Shown in pieces: positions 53,706 to 56,629 of a stretch of DNA of 64,000 bases (position 1 is its first letter; each line of letters opens with the position of its first letter). Source of the stretch: Methylotenera sp. Its GTDB lineage: Bacteria > Pseudomonadota > Gammaproteobacteria > Burkholderiales > Methylophilaceae. Location: NCBI GenBank assembly GCA_021732365.1, contig JAKFVD010000017.1:124001-188000 (forward strand), written 5' to 3'. Below the pieces are notes generated by a model. The model was not told where the DNA came from. It did not search any database and saw nothing but the letters and a program-made list of their open reading frames with translations. The translations under genes and the position numbers were made by a program.

Positions 53706-53733
53706 TTACAGCTTACATGATTGAATATCAAAG

Positions 53734-54306
53734 ATGACTAAGTCCACAATAAGTATGTCTAACAATATGCACGACTGGCTAAACCAACATGGTGACTTTT
53801 TGTACCGATTTGCATTAGCGCGCTTGCGTGACCCGCATTTGGCCGAAGATGTTGTGCAAGAGACTTTTTTAGCGGCGATTAAAAGCCCGTCTTTTTCGGG
53901 CGATTCTGCGCCTCGCACATGGTTAACGGGTATTTTAAAGCACAAAATTATTGATATGATGCGTAAAAATGTGCGTGAAATTGCCGCCTCCGATTTAATG
54001 TCTGAACAAGATGCCAATATGGATGAATTTTTTGACGATGCAGGCCGCTGGATTGAAAAGCCAATGGATTGGGATATGCCAGAAAATGCGTTAGAGCAAA
54101 AACAGTTTTTAGGGGTTTTGCAAAACTGTATGGATAAATTACCCGCCAAATTATCAGCCCTATTTATGATGCGTGATGTGCATGAAACCGACAATGAAGA
54201 AATCTGTAAGGAACTCAATATCACCAAGACCAATGCTTGGGTGATGTTATACAGAGCTCGAATGGGAATCAGAAAGTGTCTTGAGATTAATTGGTTGGGG
54301 GCGTAA
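53734..54306 (+). CDS. ECF-type sigma factor (TIGR02943-like)
   Basis: A 190-residue group-IV-like RNA polymerase sigma factor. Region 2 (about 15-85) has FLYRFALARLRDPHLAEDVV and TWLTGILKHKIIDMMRK; region 4 (about 130-185) has LPAKLSALFMMRDVHETDNE. It is 9 bp before a small zinc-finger anti-sigma gene and directly upstream of the hvfA-like gene, so it likely controls that locus. MTKST at 53734 is used; an ATG 21 nt later is possible. Confidence 0.9.
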   Translation: MTKSTISMSNNMHDWLNQHGDFLYRFALARLRDPHLAEDVVQETFLAAIKSPSFSGDSAPRTWLTGILKHKIIDMMRKNVREIAASDLMSEQDANMDEFFDDAGRWIEKPMDWDMPENALEQKQFLGVLQNCMDKLPAKLSALFMMRDVHETDNEEICKELNITKTNAWVMLYRARMGIRKCLEINWLGA

Positions 54307-54315
54307 GGGTTATTC

Positions 54316-54567
54316 ATGTTAGATTGCAGGCAAGCGAGTCAACTTATTTCAAAATCGTTAGACCGCCGTTTATCATGGCGCGAGCGTTTGGAAATACGTT
54401 TTCATTTATTTATTTGCAAATACTGCAAACGCTTCAGCCAACAATTAACTACGATGTGCACTGCCATCAACCGTATGTCGCAATCGATTGAGCATAACCA
54501 AGATATTCAGCTACCATCTGAAACCAAGAATCGAATTGCAAATGCGATTGAATCTACCGTAGATTAA
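54316..54567 (+). CDS. Zinc-finger (ZAS-type) anti-sigma factor
   Basis: An 83-residue soluble protein. His 30, Cys 34 and Cys 37 form the HxxxCxxC motif of zinc-binding anti-sigma domains (FHLFICKYCKRF); Cys 4 may be a fourth ligand. No membrane helix, so it acts in the cytoplasm. A redox or metal switch is plausible from the zinc site; inference. Confidence 0.85.
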   Translation: MLDCRQASQLISKSLDRRLSWRERLEIRFHLFICKYCKRFSQQLTTMCTAINRMSQSIEHNQDIQLPSETKNRIANAIESTVD

Positions 54568-54650
54568 ATTGCGTATAAACAGCAAGTATTGCATTGATCA
54601 CAATGTCACTTATTTATAATTTAGTTAATTTTTTAAAAAGGAAATAAACC

Positions 54651-54962
54651 ATGAAAACATCTAACAAAACGATTGCTTTAGCATTATCTGGTGCATTCGC
54701 GTTATCTATCGCTGCAACAACAGTTAACGCTGCAGAAAATCCATTTGCAATTAAATCATTATCTAGCGGCTACCAAGTTGCCGATGCTAAAGCAGCAGAC
54801 GGCAAATGCGGCGAAGGTAAATGTGGCGCGGATAAAAAAACCGATGCTAAAGCAGCAGACGGCAAATGTGGCGAAGGTAAATGTGGTGCTGACAAAAAAG
54901 CAGCTGCCGCTGATACTAAAGGAAAAGACGGAAAATGTGGCGAAGGTAAATGCGGTCACTAA
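54651..54962 (+). CDS. hvfA: HvfA-like precursor peptide of an oxazolone/thioamide metallophore
   Basis: A 103-residue exported peptide: signal peptide to about residue 27 (VNAAENPFAIKS follows), then three copies of a DGKCGEGKCG unit with Ala/Asp/Lys spacers. Cys at 53, 58, 73, 78, 96 and 101; three are in EGKCG, the motif modified by MNIO enzymes in HvfA. The gene is followed by the modifying enzyme and partner. Good GGAAATAAA leader before the ATG. Copper binding is from family knowledge. Confidence 0.9.
   Translation: MKTSNKTIALALSGAFALSIAATTVNAAENPFAIKSLSSGYQVADAKAADGKCGEGKCGADKKTDAKAADGKCGEGKCGADKKAAAADTKGKDGKCGEGKCGH
54781..54900 (+). repeat. 60-bp tandem repeat coding for the precursor core
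   Basis: Two 60-bp units (54781-54840 and 54841-54900) differing mostly at third positions. A third, shorter core is at 54927-54956. Each codes for DAKAADGKCGEGKCGADKK-like sequence. Unit number could change by recombination. Confidence 0.9.
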
Positions 54963-54986
54963 TTTGCAGTAAAACGTCACTTAATT

Positions 54987-55895
54987 TTGTCAACATTAGC
55001 TGACATAAAAGGCGTGGGTTTGGGGTTAAAGCGCGAGCTAATACCTCAAATCCAAACGCTTCATCAAGATCCATCCATTAGCAATATTAACTTTGTTGAA
55101 ATCGCTCCCGAAAACTGGATAGGCGCAGGTGGCAAAGCGCAATCTGATTTAGCCTGGTTTGTAGAACGCTATCCGATTGCCTGTCATGGGCTTTGTTTAT
55201 CTTTAGGCGGAATTGACCCGCTGAATATCGACTTTTTAAAGCAAGTTAAGTCATTTTTAAGCAACAATTCTATTCCGCTTTATACCGAACACTTAAGCTA
55301 TTGCAGCGATTTTTATCACGGCAAAACAGGTTATTTGTACGATTTATTGCCAATTCCGTTCACCGATGAAGCGGTTAAATATGTCGCTGCCAGAATCAGG
55401 CAAACGCAAGATATTCTTGAACAAAAAATCGCTATAGAAAATGCGTCGTTTTATGCGGCAGCGCCAATTTCTACTTTAAGCGAAATTGATTTTTTAAATG
55501 CGGTATTGCAAGAAGCCGATTGCTGGTTGCATTTGGATATCAATAATATCTATGTCAACAGTGTGAATTTTAGCGATAACCACCAAGATGCCCTTAAAAA
55601 CGCCTCTAACTTTTTACACCAAATTCCTAAAGAGCGCATTGTGTACAGCCATATTGCAGGCCATTATCAAGAGTCGCCCAACTTATTAATTGATACCCAT
55701 GGTAAAGATGTAGTGGCGCCTGTTTGGGATTTGCTAGCAGACGCTTATCAGCTATTTGGTGTTTTTCCGACATTGCTTGAGCGTGACAGTCACATTCCAC
55801 CACTGCCAACACTGATGCAGGAAGTGAATAAAATTGCAGCTTATCAGGCAGACTATTTATACAAAGCCACCTCAAAAATGGTGGCAGCATGTTAG
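54987..55895 (+). CDS. hvfB: MNIO (DUF692) metal-dependent oxidase, HvfB-like
   Basis: A 302-residue TIM-barrel enzyme of the multinuclear non-heme iron oxidase family, which modifies Cys in the precursor. Visible metal-ligand candidates: His 67 (ACHGLCLSL), Glu 101/His 102 (TEHLSY), Glu 151 (IENAS), Asp 184 (LHLDINN), His 222/226 (SHIAGH), Asp 236/His 238 (DTHG), Glu 265 (LLERD). TTG start; GVGLGLKRE is the first strand, so a later GTG would cut it. 24 bp after hvfA. Confidence 0.92.
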   Translation: MSTLADIKGVGLGLKRELIPQIQTLHQDPSISNINFVEIAPENWIGAGGKAQSDLAWFVERYPIACHGLCLSLGGIDPLNIDFLKQVKSFLSNNSIPLYTEHLSYCSDFYHGKTGYLYDLLPIPFTDEAVKYVAARIRQTQDILEQKIAIENASFYAAAPISTLSEIDFLNAVLQEADCWLHLDINNIYVNSVNFSDNHQDALKNASNFLHQIPKERIVYSHIAGHYQESPNLLIDTHGKDVVAPVWDLLADAYQLFGVFPTLLERDSHIPPLPTLMQEVNKIAAYQADYLYKATSKMVAAC

Positions 55896-56629
55896 ATTTT
55901 CAACATTACCAAGCGCAATTTACTGCGTATATTCGTAATCCCGCACACAATCAAAAACCGCCTAAAGTGAATGCCAGCCGTTTGGCTGTTTATAAAAAAG
56001 CAGTTTTTAACAATATTGTCGATTCTGTATCGGTTTGCTTTCCTGTTTGCCAAACAGTGATTGGCAAACGTGCTTGGCAAAAGTTGATGCGTGAATTTGT
56101 GGCAACTTATGCAGCGACCAGTCCAGTCTTCAGAGAAATTCCGCAGCAGTTTTTATTGTTTTTAAAGAAAATTGAAACAGTGCCTGCTTATTTCAAGCAA
56201 TTAGCGCATTATGAGTGGGTTGAGTTGGCAGTCAGTAAACAACAAAATTCACAAGCTGTATTGAGTGACTTAACAGATTTGTTGCACGAAAAACCAATGC
56301 TTGCGGCGGCGCATATGTTGCTGGAATATGATTATCCCGTGCATCAAATATCCGCTAAATTTAAGCCTAAACAGCCTAAAAAAACCACTTTCTTAGTATT
56401 TAGAAATCCAGAATATCAAGTCAAATTCATTGAATTAAACCCGATTACTTATCGTCTTTTGCAGTTAATCGAAGTTGAAAATTTAAGCGGTAAACAAGCA
56501 TTAACTCAGCTTGCCCAAGAAATTGAACACCCTGAAGTTGCAGTGATTATTGAATTTGGTTTAGCTATTTTGATTGATTTGGTTAATCAACAAGCCATTA
56601 TTGGCAGTCAAAAACCGTTAAGCTGTTAA
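55889..56629 (+). CDS. hvfC: HvfC-like (DUF2063) partner protein
   Basis: A 246-residue protein of the DUF2063 family that assists the MNIO enzyme, probably by presenting the peptide. N-terminal domain about 5-95 (NASRLAVYKKAVFNNIVDS), C-terminal domain about 160-240. It overlaps hvfB by 7 nt. The DoxX gene often found next is absent; the neighbour here is a convergent DUF1289 gene. Confidence 0.9.
   Translation: MLDFQHYQAQFTAYIRNPAHNQKPPKVNASRLAVYKKAVFNNIVDSVSVCFPVCQTVIGKRAWQKLMREFVATYAATSPVFREIPQQFLLFLKKIETVPAYFKQLAHYEWVELAVSKQQNSQAVLSDLTDLLHEKPMLAAAHMLLEYDYPVHQISAKFKPKQPKKTTFLVFRNPEYQVKFIELNPITYRLLQLIEVENLSGKQALTQLAQEIEHPEVAVIIEFGLAILIDLVNQQAIIGSQKPLSC

Follow-up and report, generated by a model that had tools for sequence, protein, structure and literature searches.

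In Neisseria meningitidis, the extracytoplasmic function (ECF) sigma factor sigma-E (rpoE) and its anti-sigma factor MseR belong to the operon NMB2140-NMB2145 (PMC2893595, PMC3240639), and the gonococcal counterpart has been treated as an EGKCG captophorin cluster (PMC13097082). The meningococcal sigma-E promoter has a -35 element GTMAGBWTT and a -10 element CGTCTAAH, separated by a spacer of 12-13 nt (PMC2893595). The Cys modification of such ribosomally synthesised and post-translationally modified peptides (RiPPs) is now given as a copper-binding 5-thiooxazole (PMC13097082, PMC13419390), which replaces the oxazolone/thioamide named in an initial annotation of the locus described here. For FonA, two repeats were reported to lose 8 Da (PMC13097082). 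The timing of captophorin (HvfA, bufferin) production is still poorly settled. Our subject is a locus within a 64,000-nt stretch of Methylotenera sp. DNA (the window; contig JAKFVD010000017.1, positions 124,001-188,000), which is an hvfABC-type RiPP locus with genes for an ECF sigma factor and a zinc anti-sigma factor (ZAS; gene asf).

The DNA encoding part of region 4 (the helix-turn-helix) of this sigma factor is likely to double as the sigma factor's own target promoter, an overlapping code that would be under synonymous selection in many betaproteobacterial and some gammaproteobacterial lineages. In the methylotrophs it would couple anti-sigma feedback to a copper-binding RiPP; a split-off HvfX and an unlinked BufA2 bufferin would be reunited in one regulon under the same sigma factor. 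We consider it quite likely that the system as a whole is an oxidant-type sigma/anti-sigma switch, in which an intragenic self-promoter drives the anti-sigma factor and HvfABC while periplasmic methionine repair, HvfX and BufA2 are co-induced.

A putative promoter inside the sigma factor gene

The motif searched was GTAAG-N16-CGACTAA, with the reversed pattern as control; judged by sequence, it resembles the published sigma-E promoter of meningococci. The family survey (Methylophilaceae) covered 187 genomes, 113 of them with a match to a multinuclear non-heme iron-dependent oxidase (MNIO). A total of 72 regions were fetched, four of which lay around other MNIO enzymes, and the family loci counted are the 68 with an HvfB orthologue. 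In the 250 nt that precede the anti-sigma gene, the motif was present with at most one mismatch inside the sigma gene in 59 of 62 loci. The same search upstream of sigma (0/61), hvfA (0/67), hvfB (0/68) and hvfC (0/68) found none, and both sigma autoregulation from an upstream sigma-type promoter and a promoter directly before hvfA were rejected on these counts. One-mismatch rows for DUF1841 (1) and nth (2) were slicing artefacts at locus ends, with offsets above 250 nt. Many of the family matches in a scan with a looser sigma-E consensus were again the site inside sigma. The distance from the end of the site to the anti-sigma start is 73-146 nt (median 90), and the site spans sigma codons 158-167, the Pfam region-4 match covering residues 128-176; this part of the protein is presumably the helix-turn-helix of region 4. 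The initial annotation held that the sigma factor switches on the RiPP genes, and a predicted sigma-type promoter is indeed directed into anti-sigma-hvfABC, but it lies inside the sigma gene and in the window carries two mismatches.

The conserved DNA could be a by-product of coding, with hvfABC served only by read-through, either from the nth-FIST-DUF1841 genes or from a promoter ahead of sigma. Such an origin would agree with the two mismatches of the window site, with the invariance of C158, T164, T166 and N167 in a nine-sequence alignment, with the apparent overlap of sigma and DUF1841 in part of the family, and with the lack of a terminator-like site on the plus strand between sigma and hvfA, or onwards to hvfB. 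The synonymous positions argue otherwise. The site had 0-1 mismatch in 58 of 60 family sigma genes, whereas synonymous resampling of each gene gave at most one mismatch in 14% of trials, which are not independent since the sequences compared are related. Codon 158 is TGT in 60/60 genes, compared with 55% of the other Cys codons of the same genes; codon 159 is AAG in 60/60 (29% of other Lys codons); and codon 165 is NCG in 59/60 (24% G among other NCN codons), across four residues besides the Lys of the window (A30, T11, P11, S7, K1). Because these synonymous positions are fixed although residue 165 varies, protein conservation alone would not seem to explain the site, and the codons are apparently constrained at the DNA level. 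In addition, the 16-nt spacing is that of the sites before msrP, doxX/hvfX, DUF1223 and BufA2, and the site sits in the spacer where sigma is divergent. A coding by-product with read-through is thus unlikely.

In the order (Burkholderiales), 33 loci carried the site with at most two mismatches, and the first Cys was TGT in all 33; the second Cys, at codon 168 in 26 of these loci, was TGT in 10 and TGC in 16. The two genomes with a divergent sigma gene have an intergenic site that is not carried by sigma codons: both sigma/asf spacers (L214, L215) contain the exact motif, as GTAAGGTTT-N12-CGACTAAT, directed at asf-hvfABC. The site was missing (at least five mismatches) from 17 rows representing 14 distinct loci, which comprise the 2 with divergent sigma, 5 of f44/g67 and 7 others. 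One f44/g67 locus in the Neisseria gene order (L216, its hvfC placed by profile match) has GTAAGCATT-N12-CGTCTAAT before doxX, with the published CGTCTAA -10. Among wider relatives, for 51 of 80 loci, at most one mismatch was seen in 21, two in 10 and three or more in 20. Those with at most one mismatch include Methylotenera, Methylobacillus, a Sulfuritalea, Nitrosomonas aestuarii, Methylocaldum and Silvimonas. Two mismatches were counted in Halomonas ventosae, and the site is missing in Verrucomicrobia and Actinobacteria sequences, Chitinilyticum and a Methylobacter metagenome-assembled genome.

Predicted targets and their co-occurrence with the sigma factor

The window genome (2.50 Mb, 35 contigs) contained eight exact motif matches and the reversed pattern none. 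On contig C9, exact sites precede a BufA2 precursor (start at +123 nt) and a DUF1223 gene (+26 nt); the others include those before msrP on C10 (+58 nt), before a gene for an exported glyoxalase-type protein adjoining the Buf1 operon on C7 (+27 nt) and before fba on C34 (+83 nt), with an identical copy on C22. The two copies, one closing C22 and the other opening C34, agree in the flank as well and probably reflect an assembly overlap or a repeat. One-mismatch sites were found before hvfX (C10, +27), a rubredoxin gene (C4, +50) and a gene for an exported rhodanese-like protein (C11, +58), and most of the remaining ones had nothing recognisable downstream. These sites, including that of hvfX, carry no weight by number because only the exact class is enriched. 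MsrP, MsrQ and HvfX are encoded successively on C10, each above its NCBIfam cut-off, and this HvfX, unlinked to hvfABC, is the only one above the cut-off among five HvfX matches in the genome. It is worth adding that a few EGKCG clusters have been reported with oxidored_molybd and ferric-reductase genes (PMC12452194), which fits MsrPQ as a target. The genome encodes three MNIO enzymes, of which the two outside the locus are a BufB beside the BufA2 precursor (C9) and a BufB with a DUF2282 precursor and DoxX (C7). The latter Buf1 operon (L100) reads MNIO-partner-precursor-DoxX, the exact motif on C7 preceding the glyoxalase-type gene downstream of it.

Across the family we classified 98 exact sites: 30 as loci, the next 60 in list order, unfiltered, and the 8 of the window genome. 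Among these listed sites, 18 belonged to msrP, 12 to a doxX like the window genome's HvfX, 11 to DUF1223 and 7 to a BufA2 operon (4 recognised by the precursor, 3 by the MNIO). Six showed similarity to the window genome's DsbD (the L268 open reading frame, ORF, encodes an exported thioredoxin-like protein), and smaller classes were exported MsrB (2), EF-hand (2), VOC (1), Fba (1) and CutA (1). In the MsrP, DoxX and DUF1223 classes the distance from motif to gene start is 20-86 nt (median 32, n=41). The motif inside fxsA, which reads GTAAGCC..CGACTAA in antisense, was set aside as a probable coding coincidence. For 41 Buf-type MNIO loci, a motif with at most one mismatch lay within 1 kb upstream in 30 of the 34 from genomes with the sigma factor and in 2 of the 7 from genomes without it, both of the latter (G162, G166) coming from the window's genus and incompletely assembled. 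The four exceptions among the 34 are the Buf1 locus of the window genome, the G131 locus, which a contig end truncates, and those of G033 and G046; the other five enzymes from genomes without the sigma factor are 33-36% identical to the window genome's C9 BufB and may be another type. The initial annotation's description of the sigma/anti-sigma genes as the locus's own pair is hence too narrow, as the motif also stands before unlinked msrP, hvfX, DUF1223 and BufA2 genes.

To relate the motif to the sigma factor, sigma presence was called at E<=1e-25 in the 187 family genomes and exact motif counts, which include fxsA and other coding coincidences, were set against the reversed-pattern control. 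The 100 genomes with the sigma factor (247 Mb) had 220 exact sites and 88 control matches, while the 87 genomes without it (127 Mb) had 20 and 36, respectively, with 15 of those 20 sites in three incomplete genomes (G162, G166, G036). Among genomes at least 90% complete, the 76 with sigma had 166 sites (control 72), and the 22 without it that were at least 1.5 Mb in size had 3 (control 20). Within genus g19, 91 sites (control 33) were counted in 38 genomes with sigma and a single site (control 6) in 14 without; six genomes of genus g14 that lack sigma, of 2.4-3.2 Mb, had 0 sites and 9 control matches. The genome holds five further TIGR02943 matches, none of them over the cut-off, and the motif, though real, might be recognised by a different ECF sigma factor. 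That the counts track the present sigma factor both in the family and within g19, that the motif resembles the meningococcal sigma-E promoter, and that a fixed copy lies inside this very sigma gene before its own anti-sigma gene make such a reader very unlikely.

The model we favour makes the locus the control unit of an envelope-stress regulon and begins with an MseR/HrsE-type zinc anti-sigma factor that would hold the ECF sigma factor until, judging by relatives, an envelope or thiol oxidant oxidises the zinc cysteines and frees sigma. Free sigma would then read GTAAG-N16-CGACTAA promoters. The promoter in the 3' end of sigma would drive the anti-sigma gene and hvfABC, such that negative feedback and metallophore rise together, and other sites would drive the unlinked msrP(-msrQ), hvfX, DUF1223 and the separate BufA2 bufferin operon. 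The sigma gene itself would be read from another promoter, its own or one upstream, by analogy with PrshA of Corynebacterium glutamicum. HvfBC would convert precursor cysteines into copper-binding 5-thiooxazoles, and the peptide would be exported to the periplasm, with copper sequestration as the expected output. An oxidant is the probable signal because of the ZAS cysteines and the MsrPQ target, and the predicted targets suggest that the response is directed first to oxidative envelope damage; HOCl and H2O2 raise rpoE2 expression in Haemophilus (PMC7907618).

A self-contained copper-stress RiPP locus, in which the sigma factor serves hvfABC alone and is induced by copper, would accord with the linkage of sigma-asf-hvfABC on one strand and with the copper binding of EGKCG peptides; excess copper or gold, and also oxidative stress, are reported inducers of related pathways (PMC13097082). 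Yet the motif also precedes msrP, hvfX, DUF1223 and BufA2, the Haemophilus expression data point to oxidants, and no copper export gene was recognised among the downstream proteins, not all of which were identified, with the qualification that CutA, named for cation tolerance, occurs beside fxsA-type matches. Nothing in the present sequences marked copper as the inducer, and we regard a locus devoted to copper stress as distinctly unlikely.

Several observations weigh against the oxidant-type switch with an intragenic promoter. The two mismatches of the window site are its weakest point for the window itself (AGAC in place of CGAC is also found in the window genome's HvfX site), and in 51 of 60 family genes ACC stands in place of the ACT that would perfect the -10. 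The site is missing from L138, L142-L146 and L155, which lie outside f44/g67 and have the ZAS gene directly after sigma. In five family loci hvfABC is retained without an adjoining sigma/anti-sigma pair, so dependence on the pair is not absolute. When one mismatch was allowed, the window genome had 21 motif matches and 37 reversed-control matches, and of its exact sites, two within fxsA coding sequence and the two fba contig copies fit the regulon theme poorly; its Buf1 operon has no motif upstream. Among the 98 listed sites, 14 were coding coincidences (13 fxsA, 1 sigma) and 23 were given no class by the script, although reading assigned MsrA-like (L275, L276), cytochrome-b-like (L277, L296, L305) and rubredoxin (L325) products to some of the latter. 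No exact site was found in 17 of the 100 genomes with the sigma factor, and the loss of target genes from genomes that lost sigma may have unrelated causes. Lastly, meningococcal sigma-E was reported as unresponsive to the oxidants tested (PMC2893595).

Genes of the locus and their conservation

All five genes proposed in the initial annotation were recovered at their positions and in their families, on one strand with small gaps or overlaps (Table 1); the hvfB and hvfC ORFs overlap by 7 nt. The sigma factor scored 199.7 bits against TIGR02943 (cut-off 162.2), the sole match over the cut-off among six in the genome. The anti-sigma factor matched zf-HC2 (34.9 bits, cut-off 22.2) and NF052368 (72.7, cut-off 50) and has Cys4 and the His30-x3-Cys34-x2-Cys37 arrangement of an MseR-type ZAS; it is not the NrsF/DUF1109 anti-sigma of the sigma-F type. 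The precursor is HvfA-like, with 60.2 bits against the domain model NF050137 KCGExKCG_twice (cut-off 19.5) and 70.2 against the equivalog NF050188 HvfA, which was not assigned (cut-off 95). The MNIO enzyme falls inside the HvfB family, scoring 376.6 bits against NF003818 (cut-off 360) and 242.6 against the BufB model (cut-off 310), and thus passes a point on which the initial annotation was prepared to be refuted. Its closest solved structure is 3bww (E 5.3e-70); the MbnB structure 7dz9 is distant (E 2.9e-08), and the methanobactin MbnB model TIGR04159 was absent from its matches at E<=0.1. The DUF2063 partner is an HvfC equivalog (NF050145, 247.7 bits, cut-off 142). No DoxX/HvfX gene was found among the ORFs of the hvf locus. 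Upstream neighbours on the same strand are nth, FIST and DUF1841, and DUF1289 and secA follow downstream on the opposite strand.

Table 1. Predicted features of the locus (positions in the window)
Feature	Position	Strand	Remarks
TGATTGAAT-N7-ATG element	53718-53736	+	immediately ahead of the sigma ATG; putative sigma promoter
ECF sigma factor gene	53734-54306	+	TIGR02943 family
Predicted intragenic sigma-type promoter	54206-54233	+	GTAAG (54206-54210), N16, AGACCAA (54227-54233); reads towards asf and hvfABC
asf, zinc anti-sigma factor (ZAS)	54316-54567	+	83 aa; Cys4/His30/Cys34/Cys37; profile matches, sequence
HvfA-type RiPP precursor	54651-54962	+	six Cys, all in GKCG; signal-peptide-like N-terminus (by eye)
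HvfB-type MNIO maturase (DUF692)	54987-55895	+	TTG start; profile matches
HvfC-type RiPP maturation partner	55889-56629	+	DUF2063 and NGO1945_C; profile matches

Of 61 family loci, 28 share the element at the sigma start, in the form TGNTTSAAT-N5-8-ATG; it was not found before asf (0/62), hvfA (0/67), hvfB (0/68), hvfC (0/68), DUF1841 (0/65), FIST (0/44) or nth (0/63). No clear Shine-Dalgarno sequence was seen by eye where TGATTGAAT precedes the sigma ATG, and the sigma transcript is possibly leaderless. The window genome has 30 matches to the element and 11 to the reversed pattern; as a regulon motif it was rejected, since 20 loci read gave only four open ORFs of at least 190 aa, namely L107 (sigma itself), L109, L113 and L121.

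In the family loci, with the gene order sigma-asf-hvfA-hvfB-hvfC, sigma adjoins the HvfB orthologue in 61/68 and the anti-sigma gene in 62/68, more than expected by chance. Of the seven without a sigma match, L036 and L095 are truncated shortly upstream by a contig edge; in L058, L070, L080, L081 and L083 the sigma/asf pair is absent and a DUF1841 match lies 98-217 nt before the hvfA match. In L034 (G160), L040 (G161) and L063 (G047), sigma was matched in pieces or with in-frame stops while hvfABC remain, and the L034 anti-sigma has no readable ZAS motif. The precursors vary: every Cys is in KCG in 14 of 67 (L034-L105), and in 41 of 67 the Cys residues are mostly in other contexts, such as EGSCSAEK repeats, the HvfB orthologue still being kept. 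Among 300 genomes of the order, the TIGR02943 sigma (E<=1e-40) occurred in 125 and HvfC (E<=1e-25) in 49, and by hand count sigma lay within 5 kb of HvfC in 30 of these 49 (20 upstream on the same strand, 6 downstream, all f44/g67, and 4 on the opposite strand). A ZAS anti-sigma was present in 20/20 fetched loci of these 30, and two f44/g67 loci share the published Neisseria arrangement, doxX-hvfA-hvfB-hvfC-sigma-asf.

Relation to known systems

Our literature search, outside which most subscription journals lay, returned nothing on the present regulon in Methylophilaceae or on an intragenic promoter in the present sigma group. The pairing of sigma/anti-sigma with hvf genes has already been published for Neisseria (PMC2893595); the predicted wiring is what is new. 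If the proposed wiring is true, it would clearly exemplify a regulatory site carried within its own regulator's coding sequence, and it could explain why hvfX is missing from the hvf operon here. Two captophorin families would then belong, along with MsrPQ, to a single oxidant-type sigma regulon, and the captophorin job would seem to be tied to oxidant-plus-copper envelope damage and not to copper excess alone.

As in the locus described here, an ECF sigma factor and a ZAS are encoded in Neisseria with three then-hypothetical genes, together with a DoxX gene, in a single operon; Cys4, His30, Cys34 and Cys37 of the window ZAS have the residue numbers of NMB2145/MseR (PMC2893595), the promoter is very similar, and a methionine sulfoxide reductase belongs to the regulon. 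In Neisseria, sigma/anti-sigma stand last and autoregulation acts through a promoter ahead of the operon's first gene, whereas here the pair comes first, the motif lies inside sigma and none was found before sigma. Also unlike Neisseria, the hvfX gene stands apart from the locus, next to msrPQ, and the predicted regulon takes in MsrP and BufA2. In Haemophilus influenzae, RpoE2 and the small ZAS HrsE similarly control an hvf/doxX cluster and methionine sulfoxide repair (PMC7907618, PMC13419390), although sigma and hvf genes are at separate loci there and rpoE2 is weakly self-controlled (PMC7907618).

Further from Neisseria, the Caulobacter sigma-F/NrsF system has a comparable small regulon of YedY (MsrP-type), two DUF2282-DUF692-DUF2063 operons and DoxX, and its promoter GTAACC-N16-CGAA is similar in geometry to the present motif (PMC3511200). 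Caulobacter has a DUF1109 anti-sigma, DUF2282 bufferins and a sigma-F promoter upstream of sigF, in contrast to the zinc protein, HvfA and BufA2 found here; the present system looks like the zinc-anti-sigma counterpart of the sigma-F regulon, with HvfA and BufA2. The HvfA, HvfB, HvfC, HvfX, BufA2 and BufB families are shared with published bufferins and captophorins (PMC12452194, PMC13097082), where sigma and NrsF genes are noted in Buf1 but not Buf2 clusters (PMC12452194). Beyond those papers, unlinked BufA2 operons here bear the motif that we attribute to the hvfABC-linked sigma factor. The intragenic arrangement has its parallel in sigH-rshA of C. glutamicum, where a SigH-dependent promoter of the anti-sigma gene lies within the sigH coding region and sigH itself is read from housekeeping promoters. 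The sigma group and promoter sequence differ, and the transcript covers rshA only, with no RiPP genes (PMC3489674).

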